DNA from: Halarchaeum grantii
Lineage (GTDB): Archaea > Halobacteriota > Halobacteria > Halobacteriales > Halobacteriaceae
Direction of reading: 5' to 3'
Length of the DNA: 64,000 nucleotides
Assembly (NCBI RefSeq): GCF_014647455.2
Contig: NZ_BMPF01000003.1
Coordinates: 434,001-498,000, forward strand
The translations under genes and the position numbers were made by a program. Shown here in pieces: positions 1 through 60,377 of this stretch. The notes under the pieces were generated by a model that searched no databases, had not been told where the DNA came from, and saw nothing but the letters and a program-made list of their open reading frames with translations. Numbering within the stretch: the stretch's first letter is position 1; each line of letters opens with the position of its first letter.

Positions 1-13
1 AGACCGGTCGGAG

Positions 14-30
14 AGCGGACGCAGTGTACG
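14..30 (+). repeat. origin recognition box-like repeat A1 (degenerate)
   Basis: Contains GCGGACGCAGTG, matching the core GCGGAC-N3-GTG shared by the other copies. The G-rich tail is poorly kept. It lies close to the window edge, so more copies may exist to the left. Confidence 0.4.
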
Positions 31-38
31 GCGAATCG

Positions 39-55
39 AACACCACCGTGTCCGG
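39..55 (-). repeat. origin recognition box-like repeat A2
   Basis: On the minus strand it reads CCGGACACGGTGGTGTT, a good match to the core and tail of the set. It is inverted relative to the copy at 14-30. Confidence 0.5.
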
Positions 56-280
56 AGAAAAAGTCCGTTTCAGGCACTATATCACTCGATCTATCGAGTT
101 CGGGGCGTGGTGGTGGGGGGACACCGGTCCGTCCGGGATACCGCCGAGCCCTGAGCGCGGAAAGGGAGGAGGAGAGGAAACCGACGGAAGCGGTGGTCGA
201 GCGGGCGTCGGGACGAGAATCGGGACGTCGAGATACCGGCGGACAGCGCTGGTGGGGAGCCGGGACGCGCCCGACCGTGG

Positions 281-300
281 ACACACCACTATGTCCGCTG
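281..300 (-). repeat. origin recognition box-like repeat A3
   Basis: On the minus strand it reads CAGCGGACATAGTGGTGTGT, a full match to the core plus G-rich tail. It lies left of the AT-rich core in the same orientation as the copy at 341-365. Confidence 0.6.
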
Positions 301-340
301 TTCTGTGGAGTGGGCGGAATGCGACGGCCACCGGGGGGGG

Positions 341-365
341 ACACTCACCCCACTTTGTCCGCAGT
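341..365 (-). repeat. origin recognition box-like repeat A4
   Basis: The minus strand holds ACTGCGGACAAAGTGGGGTG, taken here as the best copy. It shares the 14-base run ACTGCGGACAAAGTGG with the inverted copy at 610-636. The two flank the AT-rich core symmetrically. Confidence 0.7.
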
Positions 366-469
366 AACGACGGGAGAAGACCGGGTGGGGGAACGGGATG
401 CGGCAATACGTGCCGCCGCGGTTCGGGAAGGATTGAAGCAACAGAGAAGAGAGAAGAAGACAAGGAGAA

Positions 470-575
470 GAATAGTTTGATAGAAGACATATCTTCATTC
501 TATATGTTCTATTTTGTTCGCAGTGCGGATACTGTTTTGTTTTCTCTTTATTCAATCTTTTCCCTCATCTAGAGT
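470..575. other. AT-rich duplex-unwinding element of origin A
   Basis: A stretch rich in A and T (for example TTCTATATGTTCTATTTTG) in an otherwise very GC-rich sequence, sitting between inverted repeats at 341-365 and 610-636. Position and composition suggest the unwinding site. A degenerate repeat core (GTGCGGATACTGTT) lies inside it. Confidence 0.6.
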
Positions 576-609
576 CCTCTCTTCCACCCCCTCCCTCCCT
601 TTCGCCAGT

Positions 610-636
610 ACTGCGGACAAAGTGGAGGGGGTGTGT
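610..636 (+). repeat. origin recognition box-like repeat A5
   Basis: Reads ACTGCGGACAAAGTGGAG followed by a G run and GTGTGT. It is the mirror partner of the copy at 341-365 across the AT-rich core. Confidence 0.7.
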
Positions 637-689
637 TAGCCGACACCGTTATCCGTCTTCGATAGGCCTTCAAGTGAACTCGGAACAGC

Positions 690-727
690 GGACGCTCCGG
701 ACACTCCGGACACTCCGGACGCGGTGG
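690..727 (+). repeat. tandem 9-base repeats running into a half recognition box
   Basis: Three units GGACGCTCC, GGACACTCC and GGACACTCC follow each other without gaps and run into GGACGCGGTGG, a half copy of the origin A repeat. The array ends two bases before the TATA-like box of the cdc6 gene, so initiator binding could control that promoter. Confidence 0.55.
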
Positions 728-728
728 C

Positions 729-735
729 TTTATTG
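729..735 (+). promoter_or_regulatory. TATA-like box of cdc6 gene 1
   Basis: TTTATTG is centred 28 bases before the ATG at 760. This spacing fits a leaderless transcript starting at or near that ATG and supports that start over the in-frame GTG at 724. Confidence 0.6.
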
Positions 736-759
736 TGGTCGGCGGTCTGGGACGTTCGC

Positions 760-2079
760 ATGGGGCTCTTCGAGCGGGACACCGACATCTATCGGGACCG
801 CGACGCACTCCGGGAGGACTACCAGCCAGCCGAACTCGTCGGGCGGGACGAGGAACTCTCAACCTACACGTCCGCCCTCCAGCCGGTCATCAACGGCGAA
901 CAGCCGAACAACGTCTTCCTCTACGGGAAGACGGGCGTCGGGAAGACTGCGGCGACGCGCTACCTCCTCGACCACCTCCGCGAGGACGCCGACGAGTACG
1001 ACGACATCGCCCTCGACATCATCTTCCTCAACTGCGACGGCCTCTCCTCCTCCTACCAGGTCGCCACCCACCTCGTGAACGAACTGCGCGCCGAGCACAA
1101 CCAGATCAGTACGACGGGCTACCCGCTCGCGACGGTCTACGAGATGCTCTGGGAGGACCTCGACTCGCACGGCGGCACGGTCCTCATCGTCCTCGACGAG
1201 ATCGACAACATCGGCGACGACTCCATCCTCTATCAACTCCCGCGCGCTCGCGCGAACGGCAAACTCGAGGACACCCAAGTGGGCCTCATCGGCATCTCGA
1301 ACGACTTCTCCTTCCGCGACGACCTCTCGCCGAAGGTGAAGTCCTCGCTCTGCGAGAACGAGATCCACTTCCCCGCGTACGACGCCACCGACCTGAAGGC
1401 CATCCTGAAACAGCGCGCGGACGTCGCGTTTCACGACGGCGTCCTCGACGACGGCGTTATCCCGCTCTGTGCGGCCTACGGCGCGAAGGACGCCGGTGAC
1501 GCCCGCCAATCCATCGACCTCCTGATGAAGGCGGGCGACGTCGCGCGCGACGACGAGGCCACCACCGTCACCGAGGACCACGTCGACCGTGGGCGCACCG
1601 CGCTCGAACGCGGCCGCATCGAGGAGGGCATTCGAGGGCTCACCGAGCACGGCCACCTCGTGCTCTACGCGCTCGTGACGAACGACCTCGAGGGCGAGAC
1701 GCCGATCCGCTCGCGCGACGTCCGCCCGCGCTACACGCGCTTCGCCGAACTCGCGAACCGCGACCCGCTCGTCCCCCGCCGTATGCGCGATCACCTGAGC
1801 GAGCTCGCGATGCTCGGCATCATCTCGGTCACGGAGCGCAACGAGGGGCGACGCGGCGGCACCTACCGCGAGTACGAACTCGACATGCCGGTCCAGCAGG
1901 TCCTGAGCGCGCTCTCGGAGACCGTCGAACTCGTCGGCGTTCACGAGTCGGTCGTCGAACTCGCGACGGACGTGATGCCGGACGTCGCGGCGGCGGCCGC
2001 CGCGAGCGCGGAGGCGGACGGCGAGGGTGAGGACGCGGACGACGACCACGAGGACGCCTCCCTCGCCTCCTTCGAGTAG
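760..2079 (+). CDS. cdc6: Orc1/Cdc6 family replication initiator 1
   Basis: An AAA+ ATPase that recognises origin repeats and starts replication. The 439-residue protein has Walker A GKTGVGKT at about 56-63, Walker B VLDEID at about 144-149, a sensor 1 region near 175-183 (GLIGISN), a sensor 2 arginine in GDAR near 249, and a C-terminal winged-helix region from about 300. The tail after residue 410 is alanine- and acid-rich and probably disordered. The ATG at 760 is chosen because a TATA-like box lies 28 bases upstream. Repeats lie on both sides of the gene. Its family role is secure. That it acts on these particular repeats is inferred from position. Confidence 0.93.
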   Translation: MGLFERDTDIYRDRDALREDYQPAELVGRDEELSTYTSALQPVINGEQPNNVFLYGKTGVGKTAATRYLLDHLREDADEYDDIALDIIFLNCDGLSSSYQVATHLVNELRAEHNQISTTGYPLATVYEMLWEDLDSHGGTVLIVLDEIDNIGDDSILYQLPRARANGKLEDTQVGLIGISNDFSFRDDLSPKVKSSLCENEIHFPAYDATDLKAILKQRADVAFHDGVLDDGVIPLCAAYGAKDAGDARQSIDLLMKAGDVARDDEATTVTEDHVDRGRTALERGRIEEGIRGLTEHGHLVLYALVTNDLEGETPIRSRDVRPRYTRFAELANRDPLVPRRMRDHLSELAMLGIISVTERNEGRRGGTYREYELDMPVQQVLSALSETVELVGVHESVVELATDVMPDVAAAAAASAEADGEGEDADDDHEDASLASFE

Positions 2080-2097
2080 CGCGTCCGAGCGAACCCG

Positions 2098-2120
2098 ATT
2101 ACTGCGGACGCGGTGGGGTA
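2098..2120 (+). repeat. origin recognition box-like repeat A6
   Basis: Contains ACTGCGGACGCGGTGGGGT, just downstream of cdc6 gene 1 in the same orientation as the copy at 610-636. Confidence 0.62.
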
Positions 2121-2227
2121 TACGGAACCCTTATCTGTCTGTATGGAAGTCCGAGGGCGGACCAGCGGCTGACACCCGCACATTGAACACCGGAAAACCC
2201 GCTGAGAGCCGCGTCTCAACCGTCGAT

Positions 2228-2250
2228 ACAGCGGACGAGGTGGTGTTCGG
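2228..2250 (+). repeat. origin recognition box-like repeat A7
   Basis: Contains ACAGCGGACGAGGTGGTGTT. The 2080-2305 gap between cdc6 and the next gene holds only this copy, the copy at 2098-2120 and no plausible ORF. Confidence 0.62.
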
Positions 2251-2305
2251 TTCGGCGTCGTGACGAACCGAAAGCGGTCTGAACCGGCCCGCCCTAGCCC
2301 GGGTG

Positions 2306-3124
2306 ATGCGTGTGCTCGTCACGGGCGCGACCGACCGATACGGCTACGCCGCCGCACGGGCGCTCGATGACGCCGGTATCGACGCCGTGGTGCTCACCCG
2401 TGACACCGATTCGCCGGCCGCGCGAGCGCTCACGGCGCACGGTCTCGACGTCGTGCACGGCCGGCGCGACCAACTCGACCACGTCGAGGACGCGCTCGCC
2501 GACGCGGACGGCGCCTTCCTCTCCGTCGGAACCGGGTCGGCGCGCACCACCACGGAGCGGGGCGAGACCCTCGTTCGCGCCGTCGAACGAACCGGGACGC
2601 CCGCCGTCCACGCCTCGGTGTTCGGCGCGGACGAGCGCCCCGGCGTCCGCTGTGTCGACGTCCGCGCGAGCGTCGACGCCGACCTCGCCGAGCGAGGCGT
2701 CCCGCACGTCTCCCTCCGGCCGGGCATCCCGCTCGACGCCTTCGAGCGCGTCCGCGAGACCGTCGAGGCGGAGGGACGACTCCCCTTCCCGCTCGAGGGC
2801 CACGCCCGCGCGGCGTTCACCGACCCCCGCGACGTCGGCCGCGCGACGGCCGCAGTCTTCCGAGGGGACATAGCGGGGTCCGAGCGCCTCCCCGTGGTCG
2901 GCGGGACGCACTCGCTCTACGACGTCGCGACCGCGCTCGAAGCCGTCACCGGGGAGTCGGTGCGCGCGGACCCGCGACCCCCGACGGACGCGCCGCGTTC
3001 GCTCACCGCCTTCTACCGATGGGTGAACGAGGGCGCACTGCTCGCCCCTTCGGGCGCGCTCACCGAGCGGTACGGCGTCGAGACGGCCGCGCTCGCCGAC
3101 TACTTCGAGCGACGCGACTGGTGA
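2306..3124 (+). CDS. NmrA-like atypical short-chain dehydrogenase
   Basis: A 272-residue Rossmann protein starting MRVLVTGATDRYG, with the glycine-rich nucleotide-binding motif in the first 13 residues. The pattern fits the NmrA/YwnB atypical SDR group, which binds NAD(P) and acts as a redox sensor or as a reductase on unknown substrates. There is no SDR catalytic YxxxK in the usual place. The ATG at 2306 is preferred over the adjacent GTG at 2303. The gene converges on nikR with a one-base gap. Its substrate is unknown. Confidence 0.75.
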   Translation: MRVLVTGATDRYGYAAARALDDAGIDAVVLTRDTDSPAARALTAHGLDVVHGRRDQLDHVEDALADADGAFLSVGTGSARTTTERGETLVRAVERTGTPAVHASVFGADERPGVRCVDVRASVDADLAERGVPHVSLRPGIPLDAFERVRETVEAEGRLPFPLEGHARAAFTDPRDVGRATAAVFRGDIAGSERLPVVGGTHSLYDVATALEAVTGESVRADPRPPTDAPRSLTAFYRWVNEGALLAPSGALTERYGVETAALADYFERRDW

Positions 3125-3125
3125 G

Positions 3126-3545
3126 TCAGGCGAACGGCCCGACGTCGTCAACCGGTGTGACCGAGTAATCGACGGTGAGGGTGTCCTTCGTCGCGCGGAC
3201 CTTCCCGACGAACGTCGAGATGTCCGCGAGCTCCCCTTCGAGGATGAACAGCTCCATGCAGTGATGGTCGCCGACGTGACTGTGGAAGTTCGCGGCGACG
3301 AGGCTCTCGTTCTCGTGGCGCAGATGCATCATCTTCTCCTCGACGGTCGTCGTCTCGTAGTCGAACATCACGGTGACGACGGCCATCAGCTCGCGGTCTT
3401 CGAGGCGTTTGTCCTCGAACTCGCCGAGGAGGTTGCGTGCGGCCTCGCGGACGACTTCCGAGCGGCCGGTGTAGCCGTGCTCGTCCGCGAACTCGTCGAT
3501 GCGGTCGGCGAGTTCGTCCGGCATGGAGATGGAGACAACGGTCAT
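3126..3545 (-). CDS. nikR: nickel-responsive regulator NikR
   Basis: A 139-residue protein with an N-terminal ribbon-helix-helix ([22 protein letters not shown] binding) and a C-terminal ACT-like metal domain. The nickel ligands match those of Escherichia coli NikR with numbering shifted by one: His77, His88, His90 and Cys96 (NFHSH and HHC). NikR represses nickel uptake genes when nickel is plentiful. No nickel importer lies in this window, but a nickel-dependent urease does. A TATA-like box on the minus strand near 3572 gives leaderless spacing. Confidence 0.92.
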
Positions 3546-3591
3546 GGCTAGTAACTCGGCGCCGCTCGAATAATAAGGATTGCCCGTCGCG

Positions 3592-3807
3592 CTAGTGCGT
3601 CGTGTGCGACTCGTGGTCGGACGTCGGGTGTCGCCACGCTTCGAGCGTGTAAATCCCGAGCGCGGCGAGCGCGACGAGCGCGGCGGCGGCGATGACGTAG
3701 AAGAGCGCCATCGACTGCACGCCCACGACGATGACGAGGACGAGCGCGATTATCTCGGCGACCGCGGCGACGCCGAAGATGCCGAACGCGAGGTCTTGTA
3801 ACTCCAT
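3592..3807 (-). CDS. small two-helix membrane protein with His-rich tail
   Basis: An unrecognised 71-residue protein. It has two hydrophobic segments (about 8-30 and 33-52) and a hydrophilic C-terminus with four histidines (HESHTTH at the end). Codon use has the strong C/G third position of its neighbours, and a TATA-like box lies about 26 bases before the ATG, so it is probably real. It lies upstream of nikR on the same strand. A link to metal is only a guess from position and the histidines. Confidence 0.6.
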
Positions 3808-3894
3808 ATCCGCCGATACTGTCGAAACCCGCTTATTCGTGTCGGTCCGCGAGCGGCGACCGGTCCTGCGCCCCTCCGAGGGCTATCGCCCGTC

Positions 3895-4152
3895 TCAACG
3901 CATATGCCGGAGGTGGCGGCGGTGCTTCGAGCGCGCGATCATGAAGACGAACGCGCCGAACGCCATCGTGAGGAAGCTCATTCCGACGATGATCGCGGCG
4001 ACCGTGAGCGTCGACGACGAGATGATCTCGATGCCCTGTACGACGGCCATCGGGTCCCCGATGAGTTCGTTGAGGAAGATGACGCAGCCGACGCAGAGGC
4101 CGATACAGCCCGCGACCATCATCGAGAAGGAGTAGACGCCGCTGTTCAACAC
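3895..4152 (-). CDS. small two-helix membrane protein
   Basis: An unrecognised 85-residue protein with two hydrophobic segments (about 8-28 and 46-73), two cysteines in the first (CIGLCVGC region) and a basic tail with several histidines (HRRHLRHMR). It lies 87 bases upstream of the other tiny membrane gene on the same strand and may be co-expressed with it. The start is uncertain because MMVAGC at residue 11 is an alternative. Confidence 0.5.
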   Translation of the reverse strand: MLNSGVYSFSMMVAGCIGLCVGCVIFLNELIGDPMAVVQGIEIISSSTLTVAAIIVGMSFLTMAFGAFVFMIARSKHRRHLRHMR

Positions 4153-4324
4153 GGCGTCCGGACGTTCCAGTGGGCGGCGGTACCGACCACTGAGCGCGTC
4201 CCTCCCTCCATCACTATATCGATCTGATTAGTCTCCAGCAGTAATAACTCTTCGCCGAGCGCCGTACACGGACGAACCCACCGGAGTCCGGGGGTTCAAG
4301 CCGCCGGCACCCCATTCGATTCGT

Positions 4325-5131
4325 ATGCCCATCGAGATGCCGCGCCTCGGACTCGGGACGTACACCGACGACGACCAGGAGGGCCGCTACGACGCCGTCA
4401 AGACCGCCCTCGACGTCGGCTATCGGCACATCGACACCGCGCAGGTCTACGAAAACGAGGAGTATGTCGGCGCCGCGATAGCGGACTCGGACGTCGCGCG
4501 CGAGGACGTCTTCCTCGCGACGAAGACCGTCCACCACGACGTCCCCGAGTCCCCCGGGGACGTCCGGGACGCCATCGAGGGCTGTCTCGAACGCCTCGGC
4601 ACGAACTACGTCGACCTGCTCTACGTCCACTGGCCGACCGGCGTCTACGACGCCGAGGCCGTCCTCGGCGCCTATCAGGACGCCCACGACGACGGACTCG
4701 TCGAGCATATCGGCGTCTCGAACTTCCTCCCCGAGCACCTCGAGGAAGCCCGTGAGGTCCTCGACGTCCCGATCGCCGCCCACCAGTTCGAGATGCATCC
4801 GCTCCTCCCGCAGGACGAACTCCGCGCGGACGCCCGCGAACACGGCTATTGGGCGGTCGCCTACTCCCCGGTCGCACAGGGCCGCGTCGCCGACCTCGAC
4901 CCCGTCGTCGAGGCCGCCGACGCCCACGACGCCTCCCCGTATCAGGTCGCGCTCGCGTGGCTCCTCTCGAAGGAGAACGTCGCCGCCGTCCCGCGCGCGA
5001 CGGGCCGCGCGCACATCGCCGATAACTACGGCGCGCGCGACCTCGAGTTGACCGCCTCGGAGGTCGCGGCCATCGACGCCATCGAGGACCGCGAGCGCCT
5101 CATCGACCCCGAGTGGGCGCCCTGGAACTGA
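4325..5131 (+). CDS. aldo/keto reductase (paralog 1)
   Basis: A 268-residue NADPH-dependent (beta/alpha)8 reductase of the AKR5-like type. The catalytic tetrad is visible: Asp in HIDTAQ, Tyr in QVYENE, Lys in ATKTVHH and His in YVHWP. The cofactor-binding region near LAWLLSKENV follows, and then a conserved end (APWN). A TATA-like TTCAAG at about 4295-4300 gives leaderless spacing to the ATG. Two close paralogs lie at 38117-38914 and 44081-44914. Its substrate is unknown. Confidence 0.88.
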   Translation: MPIEMPRLGLGTYTDDDQEGRYDAVKTALDVGYRHIDTAQVYENEEYVGAAIADSDVAREDVFLATKTVHHDVPESPGDVRDAIEGCLERLGTNYVDLLYVHWPTGVYDAEAVLGAYQDAHDDGLVEHIGVSNFLPEHLEEAREVLDVPIAAHQFEMHPLLPQDELRADAREHGYWAVAYSPVAQGRVADLDPVVEAADAHDASPYQVALAWLLSKENVAAVPRATGRAHIADNYGARDLELTASEVAAIDAIEDRERLIDPEWAPWN

Positions 5132-5251
5132 CGCGCGCTGACCACGGGGCCGGGTGGTCGACGGCGCGGGGCGTGAGCGCGTCTCGTCGGCCATCAGCCG
5201 GCCGATTCGGGAGGGGACAAATCCTTAACGGTGGAAACCCGATCCACCTAC

Positions 5252-6103
5252 ATGATTGATGAGGCGGTACAGGACATCGAGGAGATGCGGTCGCAGAGCG
5301 CCTCCGTCGTCGCTGTCAAGGCCGCCCGCGCGCTCGAAGAGCTCGTCCACCGCGACCACTACACGGTCGAGGAGGGGCTCCGGTCGCTCGAGCGCAACAG
5401 CAACGCGCTCCGGCGCGCGAGCCCATCGCACACGCTCCTGCACACCACCCAGAAGCGGATTCTCGAGCGCGTCACGGAGCCCGAGCCGACCGACGTCGAG
5501 GAGATGACCGCCAGACTCCGCACGACCATTCGCGACGTCGTCGCCGACGTCCAGACGAGCAAGGAGCGAGCGGCGGCGGAGGCCGCCAGAACCCTCTCCG
5601 ACGGCGACACCGTCCTCACCCACGAGAGCTCCTCGACGGTCATCGCGACGCTCGAACACGCCCTCGAGGACGGGCTGACGCTCGACCTCTACGTCACGGA
5701 AGCGAGACCGCGCTTCCTCGGGCGGCGGACCGCGCGCCGGCTCGCCGACCACGACGCCATCGACGTCACCGTCGTCGTCGACGGCGCCGCCGGCTACTGC
5801 CTCGACGAGTGCGACCGCGTCCTCGTCGGCATGAACTGCTTCGTCGACGACGTCGTCTACAACCGCGTCGGCACCTTCCCCATCGTCACCGCCGCCGACT
5901 ACCACGACGTCCCCGTGACCGTCGTCGGCTCCTCGATGAAGTTCATCGGCTCCGACTTCGTCTTCGAGAACACGCTCCGCTCGCCCGCCGAGGTGCTTCG
6001 GGAGCCGGCGGACGGGTTCTCCGCGCTCAACCCGAGCTACGACGAGACGCCGATCGAACTCCTCGACACCGTCGTCACCGAGGACGGCGCGATGCAGCTG
6101 TAG
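5252..6103 (+). CDS. eIF-2B alpha/ribose-1,5-bisphosphate isomerase-like protein
   Basis: A 283-residue protein of the eIF-2B alpha/beta/delta fold. The family includes translation factor subunits and sugar-phosphate isomerases. Typical motifs are the helical N-terminal half, THESSSTV, YVTEARP and GMNCFVDD. Archaeal members without an eIF-2B exchange role are often ribose-1,5-bisphosphate isomerases of the AMP route, but the sequence does not settle which role applies. The ATG at 5252 is chosen over the GTG at 5231 because TATA-like sequence near 5219-5229 lies 27 bases upstream. Confidence 0.8.
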   Translation: MIDEAVQDIEEMRSQSASVVAVKAARALEELVHRDHYTVEEGLRSLERNSNALRRASPSHTLLHTTQKRILERVTEPEPTDVEEMTARLRTTIRDVVADVQTSKERAAAEAARTLSDGDTVLTHESSSTVIATLEHALEDGLTLDLYVTEARPRFLGRRTARRLADHDAIDVTVVVDGAAGYCLDECDRVLVGMNCFVDDVVYNRVGTFPIVTAADYHDVPVTVVGSSMKFIGSDFVFENTLRSPAEVLREPADGFSALNPSYDETPIELLDTVVTEDGAMQL

Positions 6104-47278: not shown

Positions 47279-47308
47279 CGCGAACAACAGCGGACACGGT
47301 GGTGTGGT
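47279..47308 (+). repeat. isolated origin A-type repeat, left copy
   Basis: Contains ACAGCGGACACGGTGGTGTG, a match to the boxes around cdc6 gene 1 some 45 kb away. It matches the copy at 49046-49075 in 25 of 30 positions and lies just beyond the 3' end of the Bat-type regulator gene. Confidence 0.5.
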
Positions 47309-58293: not shown

Positions 58294-58443
58294 GACCGGG
58301 CGGACGCTGGCTGTCGCATCACTGACGGCCCAGTGACCGTCGCCCACCCATCCAGCGTCTACGACGAGATGGAACGGTCGCCTGCGGGTGTCACAGCCGT
58401 CACTGCACACGCGAGTGAGTGAGCGGATGAGCGTTCCACGCGC

Positions 58444-58463
58444 ACACCGTGTTTCCGGTGAAT
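58444..58463 (-). repeat. origin recognition box B1
   Basis: On the minus strand it reads ATTCACCGGAAACACGGTGT, identical in its core to the copy at 59098-59121. Confidence 0.75.
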
Positions 58464-58554
58464 CGGCTGTGGTGGCCGGGGGTCGGCCGCGATGCCGGGA
58501 CGACACGGCGGACCGCCGTGCTGCCACCTCGACTGTCGAGCGCGACGCGGACAG

Positions 58555-58577
58555 ACACACCGGGTTTCCGGTGAAAC
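58555..58577 (-). repeat. origin recognition box B2
   Basis: On the minus strand it reads TTTCACCGGAAACCCGGTGT plus GT repeats, the mirror image of the copy at 59054-59080. Confidence 0.78.
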
Positions 58578-58649
58578 ACGTTCGAGAGTCCCCGGTGGCG
58601 TCACGGTGTCGGCGACAGTCGGTGACGAATCGGGGCCGGTGGCTGACGA

Positions 58650-58750
58650 AGAGATGAGTAGTACTATATACTATAGCTTCGTTAAAATCCACTAGCTAGA
58701 TATCTGTATTATGAAGTCGATACTGTTGTATCGACGTATTCTTCTTGAAA
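58650..58750. other. AT-rich unwinding element of origin B
   Basis: Strongly AT-rich compared with its surroundings, with ACTATATACTATAGC, GTTAAAATCC and TAGATATCTGTATTATG. It lies between the inverted recognition boxes. Confidence 0.65.
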
Positions 58751-58994
58751 CAACCCCCCACTCCTCAGCAGTTTCTCGCGCTCGACGGGTCGCCCATCGC
58801 TTCGATGGGCTGCACCTCCTCCGACGGGCTCCTCTCCTCACTGGGCCTTTGTTTCCGATTGGCACCCACACGTCTCCCCGGTCGTCCGCATCGACGTGCC
58901 ACCACGTTGACCGCTACGTCGAGCGCCGCAAGCCGTCTCGCCGTCGTGTCGTCCCCGCGCGGCCGCTCGTATCCCCCGTCGCCCGAGGGGCGTA

Positions 58995-59012
58995 CCGCGC
59001 TTCCGGTGAAAT
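58995..59012 (-). repeat. degenerate origin recognition box B3
   Basis: ATTTCACCGGAAGCGCGG on the minus strand keeps TTTCACCGGAA but not the right half of the box. Confidence 0.4.
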
Positions 59013-59053
59013 GGAACCCCGGCTTCGTGACCCCTCCCATGCCTCTCTGACCT

Positions 59054-59080
59054 ATTTCACCGGAAACCCGGTGTGTGTGT
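59054..59080 (+). repeat. origin recognition box B4
   Basis: TTTCACCGGAAACCCGGTGT followed by a GT run, the best copy of the set together with 58555-58577. Confidence 0.78.
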
Positions 59081-59097
59081 CTCGGAAACGCTCAAGT

Positions 59098-59121
59098 ATA
59101 TTCACCGGAAACACGGTGTCA
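59098..59121 (+). repeat. origin recognition box B5 at the cdc6 promoter
   Basis: ATTCACCGGAAACACGGTGT fills the space between a TATA-like AAGTATATT (59094-59102) and the ATG at 59126. The initiator binding here would cover its own transcription start. Confidence 0.72.
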
Positions 59122-59125
59122 CCGA

Positions 59126-60340
59126 ATGCCCGACACCGACGACCTCTTCATTCGCGAGGACCCCGTCTTCACTAACAAGGAGCTCCTCGAAATCAACCAC
59201 CTCCCCGACGAGGGGCGCATTGTCGGCCGCGACGAGGAAATCCGCCAGCTCGCCAATGCCGTCAATCCCGCCATTTTCGGTCAGAGCCCGAGCAACATTC
59301 TCATCTACGGCAAGACGGGCACCGGGAAGTCGCTCTGCGCCAAACACGTCTCACAGCGCCTCGTCGAAACGGCCGGTGAGGAAGACATCGACGCCGTCTA
59401 CGCCTATGTTGACTGCGCACAGGACTCCACGGAGACGCAGGCTGTCCAGACGCTCGCCAGCAGCGTCAACGACCGCGCGCGCACCGACGCGAAGATTCCC
59501 GACAAGGGCATCAGCACCGCGACGTACTACAAGCGCCTCTGGCGCATTCTCGACGCCCGCCACGACATCGTCCTCGTCATCCTCGACGAGATCGACAAAC
59601 TCGAGGACGACGACATCCTCATGCAGCTCTCGCGCGCCGGTGAAGCCGGGAAGATCACCGACTGCAAGGTCGGCGTCATCGGCATCAGCAACAAGATCAA
59701 GTACAAGGACCGGATGGATGAACGCGTCAAATCGAGCCTCTGCGAGCGCGAGTTCGTCTTCCCGCCGTACGACGCCGACCAACTGAGCAGCATCATGCGC
59801 GCCCGCGCTGATGCGTTCCGTGACGGCGTCCTCGACGACGCCGTGATTCCGCGCGCCGCTGCCCTCGCTGCGCGCGAGCACGGCGACGCACGCAAGGCCA
59901 TCGACATCCTCCGGTACGCGGGCGAGATCGCTCAGTCGAGCGGCTCCGAGGCCGTCGAGGAGCGCTTCGTCGTCGACGCCCGCGAGCGTGCCGAAACCGA
60001 CCGGTTCCGCGAGCTCATTCGCGGGTCGACGCCGCACTCCCGCTACGTCCTCCACGCCCTCGTCGTGCTCGCGCTCGACGACGACACCGACGACGACGGC
60101 TTTCGCACGACGCGGATCTACGACGTCTATGAGCAAATCTGCCGGCAGGAGGGCCTCGACGCCCTCTCGCTTCGTCGCGTGCGCGACCTCCTGAAGGAGC
60201 ACGCGTTCCTCGATATCGTCGAGCAGTCCCGACACAGCGGCGGGAGCGCCGAAGGCACCTACACGAACCACACGCTCCTCGAGGACCCGACCGTCATCCG
60301 CGAAGTACTCACGGAGACTGCCACCCCCAAGGGCGCGTAG
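59126..60340 (+). CDS. cdc6: Orc1/Cdc6 family replication initiator 2 (oriC1 type)
   Basis: A 404-residue AAA+ initiator. The N-terminus MPDTDDLFIREDPVFTNKEL resembles the oriC1-linked Orc1 of many haloarchaea. Walker A GKTGTGKS is at 62-69, Walker B LVILDEID near 150-157 and sensor 1 VIGISN near 184-189. A winged helix follows from about 300. The ATG at 59126 is chosen because the TATA-like box lies 27 bases upstream and a longer start would translate the recognition box. The protein is clearly different from the initiator at 760, although the domain order is the same. Confidence 0.94.
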   Translation: MPDTDDLFIREDPVFTNKELLEINHLPDEGRIVGRDEEIRQLANAVNPAIFGQSPSNILIYGKTGTGKSLCAKHVSQRLVETAGEEDIDAVYAYVDCAQDSTETQAVQTLASSVNDRARTDAKIPDKGISTATYYKRLWRILDARHDIVLVILDEIDKLEDDDILMQLSRAGEAGKITDCKVGVIGISNKIKYKDRMDERVKSSLCEREFVFPPYDADQLSSIMRARADAFRDGVLDDAVIPRAAALAAREHGDARKAIDILRYAGEIAQSSGSEAVEERFVVDARERAETDRFRELIRGSTPHSRYVLHALVVLALDDDTDDDGFRTTRIYDVYEQICRQEGLDALSLRRVRDLLKEHAFLDIVEQSRHSGGSAEGTYTNHTLLEDPTVIREVLTETATPKGA

Positions 60341-60350
60341 CCCGGCCGTT

Positions 60351-60377
60351 GGTTTCACCGGAAACCCGGTGTCCGAG
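60351..60377 (+). repeat. origin recognition box B6
   Basis: TTTCACCGGAAACCCGGTGT lies 11 bases after the cdc6 stop, so boxes flank the gene on both sides. Confidence 0.75.

Follow-up and report, generated by a model that had tools for sequence, protein, structure and literature searches.

A probable Orc1/Cdc6-dependent megaplasmid origin of the oriP-cdc6K type in Halarchaeum grantii

Layout of the origin A locus

The window analysed here, a stretch of 64,000 nucleotides, corresponded to positions 434001-498000 of contig C3 (NZ_BMPF01000003.1) in the 3.02-Mb genome of Halarchaeum grantii, which is distributed over 13 contigs. Its first 2.3 kb, referred to as origin A, displayed an orc1/cdc6 gene, a repeated box GCGGAC-N3-GTG and an AT-rich element enclosed by inverted copies of this box (Table 1). 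No RNA family was found by Rfam in positions 1-6000 of the window.

Table 1. Features of origin A and of one distant box on the same replicon (window coordinates)
Feature	Position	Strand	Evidence
orc1/cdc6 initiator gene, Cdc6K-type, 439 aa	760..2079	+	TIGR02928, Cdc6_lid, Cdc6_C
AT-rich candidate duplex unwinding element between inner boxes	430..585	.	36.5% GC
Inner left origin recognition box (predicted) TACTGCGGACAAAGTGGGG	348..366	-	exact core, mirror pair
Inner right origin recognition box (predicted) TACTGCGGACAAAGTGGAGG	609..628	+	exact core, mirror pair
Outer left box AACAGCGGACATAGTGGTGTGT	281..302	-	top PWM score of contig, 38.2 bits
One-mismatch box CCGGACACGGTG	44..55	-	PWM 21.2 bits
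Exact-core but weak box, without G-rich tail	15..26	+	not among PWM matches of at least 12 bits
Promoter box CCGGACGCGGTGG adjoining TATA-like CTTTATT	715..734	+	layout kept in nearly all orthologues
Downstream box 1 ACTGCGGACGCGGTGGGGT	2101..2119	+	exact core, PWM
Downstream box 2 ACAGCGGACGAGGTGGTGT	2228..2246	+	exact core, PWM
Half-box AGTGCGGATAC in AT-rich element	522..532	+	91 bp left of inner right box
Inner G-rich element, left arm GGGTGGGGG	383..391	+	sequence; family G-left/C-right pattern
Inner G-rich element, right arm (CCACCCCCTCCCTCCC on + strand)	584..599	-	sequence; family pattern
Isolated intergenic box ACAGCGGACACGGTGGTG	47287..47304	+	PWM 33.0 bits; ~47 kb from origin, same replicon

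The first-pass annotation had counted at least seven copies of the box, with G-rich tails, and had placed minus-strand copies to the left of the AT-rich core and plus-strand copies to its right. The repeat proved real. However, exact copies numbered six, at 15(+), 287(-), 351(-), 613(+), 2104(+) and 2231(+), and seven or more were only reached by counting one-mismatch variants, found at 715(+) (CCGGACGCGGTG), at 44(-) (CCGGACACGGTG) and, ~29 bases before the window starts, at C3:433972(+) (GCGGACGGGATG). The orientation rule held for the innermost pair and for the copies at 287 and 351, but plus-strand copies at 15 and around -29 both lay left of the core. Tails were clear at 287, 351, 613, 2104 and 2231 and missing at 15 (GTGTACGG). 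Exact mirroring of ACTGCGGACAAAGTGG (610-625) at 350-365 was confirmed, and the mirror extended to 26-nt arms (341-366 and 609-634) that were 88% complementary. The AT-rich core was found as described, dropping to 32.7% GC at 450-550 in a contig of mostly ~65-72% GC.

This accumulation was far denser than in the surrounding DNA. Six exact cores were present in 2.3 kb, whereas the window had five in its remaining 61.7 kb (Poisson P ~5e-8), and five of the 13 exact ACNGCGGACNNNGTGG sites of the entire genome fell within the cluster (P ~7e-14). A literature search for the box sequence gave no match; published logos are contained in figures.

Box-like GACTGCGGACAGNGTGG sites were also encountered on four other contigs (C4:103267, C5:171009, C7:56707 and C8:61039) and are probably unrelated to ORBs. 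Those on C4, C5 and C7 were discounted because they sit in related copies of one apparent coding sequence, and the C8 site was nearly identical to them in sequence.

The initiator protein

The fold of Orc1/Cdc6 proteins is already solved. The 760-2079 protein belonged to this family, as indicated by TIGR02928 (E 7.8e-133), Cdc6_lid and a Cdc6_C winged helix. ATG 760 was retained as start since relatives begin there, a GTG start at 724 being less likely. Among characterised proteins, its orthologue is Cdc6K, encoded on pHH400 of Haloarcula hispanica (74% identity, 73.8% before rounding, over 401 aa). Both grouped in a clade without any other tested Orc, with a support of 0.80 that became 0.99 once the group of Haladaptatus, Haloterrigena and Natrinema halophilum was included. 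Direct identity to Cdc6K was below the threshold of at least 80% used by Wu et al. to define Orc families, which is why the locus is referred to here as of oriP-cdc6K type, although tree and box place the protein with Cdc6K. Orthologues from Haloferax and Halobellus (80-83% identity) were accompanied by the same box. Within the genus, the gene was found in all four Halarchaeum genomes compared, at 95% identity or more.

Conservation of box and initiator

Sixty-seven homologous loci were compared. The box cluster, with AGAACWGCGGACANNGTGGTG as box, was carried by the 65 loci of closer Orc identity (~72-100%). A consensus derived from 439 unique sites (AGAACWGCGGACANNGTGGTGTGGG) was G-rich at positions 13-19, its 3' end, which fits the halophile-specific G-string of ORBs. 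In 59 of the 67 loci, including that of Halarchaeum, the nearest boxes flanking the AT minimum were on the minus strand at left and on the plus strand at right, at a near-constant position. Boxes averaged 4.9 in the 1.2 kb upstream of the gene and 2.1 in the 0.9 kb downstream, with none inside it; their density away from the gene was 0.097/kb. Downstream boxes were present in 53 of 62 loci, with 96 on the plus strand versus 35 on the minus strand.

The GCGGAC box was missing at seven homologues of only 52-64% identity. Other sites were found at these seven loci: GCGGAA-type boxes at the two Halorussus loci, CCGGAAA in Halapricum, CTGGAAAC in Halogranum and TGGACA-like sites in Haloterrigena, Natrinema halophilum and Haladaptatus. 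This linkage between initiator and box is the one described by Wu et al., here at higher resolution. A 2014 study considered conservation of oriP-cdc6K as apparently restricted to Haloarcula (PMC4441112). The type is already known from that genus; what is new here is that the same predicted box and its initiator are found together in more than 20 genera, repeatedly on megaplasmids.

For the cdc6 promoter, nearly all relatives shared one layout: GAACAGCGGACAC, followed by 9-bp units and by GTGGTTTTAT. Tandem CTCCGGACA units of 9 bp occupied positions ~693-720 of the window, their number varying among species while GTGGTTTTAT was fixed. Inside the box pair, family flanks were G-rich at left and C-rich at right (24 vs 15 and 9.5 vs 22 per 75 bp). 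In most of 59 loci, with two outliers, the AT-rich element contained a half-box, ACTACGGA, at a distance of 86-105 bp from the inner right box. Its motif score exceeded those of all 30 shuffles, in an exploratory comparison for which the motif had been seeded from the same data. The tight spacing, with a standard deviation of 7.8 bp versus ~32 in shuffles, was stronger evidence than this score but is inflated by the relatedness of the loci.

Comparison with characterized origins

The oriP-cdc6K region of H. hispanica replicates autonomously and displays ARS activity (PMC3528665). On pHH400 neither oriP nor cdc6K could be deleted, and marker frequency indicated that oriP alone drives replication (PMC3936714). 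Boxes of pHH400 oriP were located at -739, -685, -598, -453, -123, +1250 and +1307 relative to the cdc6K start. Origin A resembled this system by its orthologous initiator, its GCGGAC-N3-GTGG box with G-rich tail and its megaplasmid location, as well as by an inverted inner pair around an upstream AT-rich element and by two plus-strand boxes downstream. It differed from it by another host family and other neighbouring genes, by expanded 9-bp repeats in the promoter and by the extra Orc cassettes on C3.

Inverted ORBs with a G-string around an AT-rich element are shared with oriC1-cdc6A and classical archaeal ORB origins, whereas box sequence and initiator clade are different. An inner G-rich inverted repeat enhances oriC1 of H. 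hispanica (PMC3936714), and the G-rich arms at 383-391 and 584-599 are a possible counterpart of it. Boxes downstream of cdc6 recall oriC2-cdc6E of the same species, in which an ORB cluster (oriC2D) acts as a negative element, titrating the initiator and keeping firing in check (PMC3936714); however, Orc and locus are different there, and two downstream boxes contrast with 11 in oriC2. Origin II, known from Halorubrum lacusprofundi (Hla_3512) and Haloquadratum (HQ2959A), displays a nearly identical box (TAACAGCGGAAACAGTGGGGTGGGGGGGT) with A instead of C at position 6, but in the genome considered here the GCGGAA box sits at another Orc locus, C3:10049.

Replicon context and additional Orc loci

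A close relative of the locus was found on pCBA1220-01, a complete circular replicon of 602,938 bp from Halarchaeum sp. CBA1220, in which tblastn detected a single Orc place. Its Orc was 99% identical to the 760-2079 protein. The window was largely colinear with this plasmid (~93-97% DNA identity in both halves), pieces of C3 sampled from 84 to 342 kb also aligned to it, and both strains shared the gene order msrA, M48 protease, UspA, origin, cdc6, NmrA-like and CopG/NikR-like. Protein match, colinearity and gene order together indicate that origin A belongs to a megaplasmid. This modifies the first-pass annotation: the locus is read as a megaplasmid origin, not evidently as that of the main chromosome, and we infer its activity in Halarchaeum grantii from sequence comparison. 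The first ~70 kb of C3 were lower in G+C, and sampled positions 1-20 kb were not colinear with pCBA1220-01.

Unlike pCBA1220-01, C3 carried three Orc genes. The second one was part of origin B (window 58295-60363, 2.07 kb), which displayed CACCGGAAAC boxes, with CACCGGAAACNCGGTGT as its box. This segment was absent from pCBA1220-01, where its flanks meet over ~20 bases, and DNA matches of its Orc within the genus reached only 66-73%. Origin A is therefore considered core and origin B accessory, either gained here or lost there. The earlier suggestions that the origin A box is unlike that of origin B and that both form separate initiator-origin pairs were supported: origin B combined another box with a distant Orc, the origin A cluster was present at only one of the compared Orc loci of this genome, and an independent pair is also supported by orthology with oriP-cdc6K and by the joint conservation of box and initiator at 65 loci.

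A third Orc locus was located at C3:9718-11256 (Orc at C3:10049). Its GCGGAAGCAGTGGGG boxes, with GCGGAAGCAGTGG as box, were one base off the origin A box and matched a published ORB of Halorubrum and Haloquadratum; they offer a natural test of box discrimination.

With two further Orc genes on the contig, origin A could share or lose its job in this strain. It could even be an intact origin that is dormant or secondary, with firing of the replicon left to origin B, at a distance of 59 kb, or to C3:10049. In haloarchaea, origins that are associated with Orc genes but dormant have been described (PMC4595724), and cumulative GC skew on the incomplete C3 displayed extrema at 228.7 and 471.8 kb, the latter 37 kb away, and none at 434.6 kb. 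Such dormancy is nevertheless unlikely: origin B is a 2.07-kb cassette lacking from the sister plasmid and poorly matched within the genus, colinearity with pCBA1220-01 does not extend to the segment bearing the C3:10049 Orc, and no Orc was detected on that plasmid other than the origin A one, which is conserved throughout the genus.

Proposed mechanism and alternative readings

In the established archaeal ORB model, Orc proteins bound at inverted boxes face an AT-rich element and load MCM there. Origin A is very probably an Orc1/Cdc6-dependent Halarchaeum megaplasmid origin of oriP-cdc6K type, equipped with a dedicated initiator and operating along these lines. Orthology, co-conservation and geometry carry this assignment, and from them binding, melting and firing are predicted. 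The 760-2079 protein would bind the GCGGAC-N3-GTGG boxes as ORBs, and the inner inverted pair would orient initiators towards the AT-rich element, which would melt and receive the MCM helicase.

Since the promoter box touches the TATA-like element, repression by the initiator itself is predicted, and cdc6 may thus be autorepressed. Boxes at 2101-2246 would take up spare initiator and limit firing; by analogy with oriC2 of H. hispanica, titration is the simplest reading of their presence downstream.

A proposal that the boxes are primarily transcriptional operators, through which an Orc-family regulator controls its own gene at a locus that is no origin, draws on the same promoter layout, kept next to the TATA element in nearly all relatives. 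Autoregulation requires neither boxes inverted about an AT-rich element nor a downstream array, and the orthologous region replicates autonomously (PMC3528665), so that this proposal appears very improbable. It is hardly credible, too, that the boxes form a partition or centromere site, an iteron array for a ParB-like protein beside an unrelated cdc6. Boxes are indeed iterated, and a ParA gene lies ~2.5-3 kb downstream of the Haloferax mediterranei orthologue; however, the box tracks the Orc clade rather than any ParA/B gene, and the neighbouring genes annotated in Halarchaeum and Salarchaeum include no par gene. Chance repetition in G+C-rich DNA, compatible with single GCGGAC-N3-GTG copies elsewhere in the genome, some of them in apparent coding sequence, can be dismissed as virtually impossible in view of the Poisson values (~5e-8 to 7e-14) and is already refuted by the conservation of the same box at 65 orthologous loci.

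Solitary boxes and possible extensions

Apart from the cluster, origin A-type boxes, single or paired, occurred in intergenic gaps far from the origin. Strong solitary ones occupied short gaps at C3:204689 and C3:481287 (the isolated box of Table 1), and weaker ones were located at C3:162990 and C3:342214. In 400 kb of contig C1, no box of comparable strength was found (best 20.9 bits vs 33.0). Solitary boxes were also present in pCBA1220-01, where the one at window position 47287 was identical, in DNA that is ~95% identical anyway. Counts are small, and their occurrence on the same replicon is considered as a lead. More tentatively, and with considerable doubt, the degenerate half-ORB ACTACGGA, ~90 bp from the right ORB, might provide a contact for melting or helicase loading, while solitary ORBs might titrate the initiator according to replicon copy number.

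Significance

For a predicted origin of oriP-cdc6K type, the joint occurrence of box and initiator in more than 20 genera points to a widespread and stable replicator, which may be useful for building vectors. It also raises the question of how archaeal initiators distinguish their own boxes from others that are almost identical, with GCGGAC here and GCGGAA at another Orc locus of the same contig.
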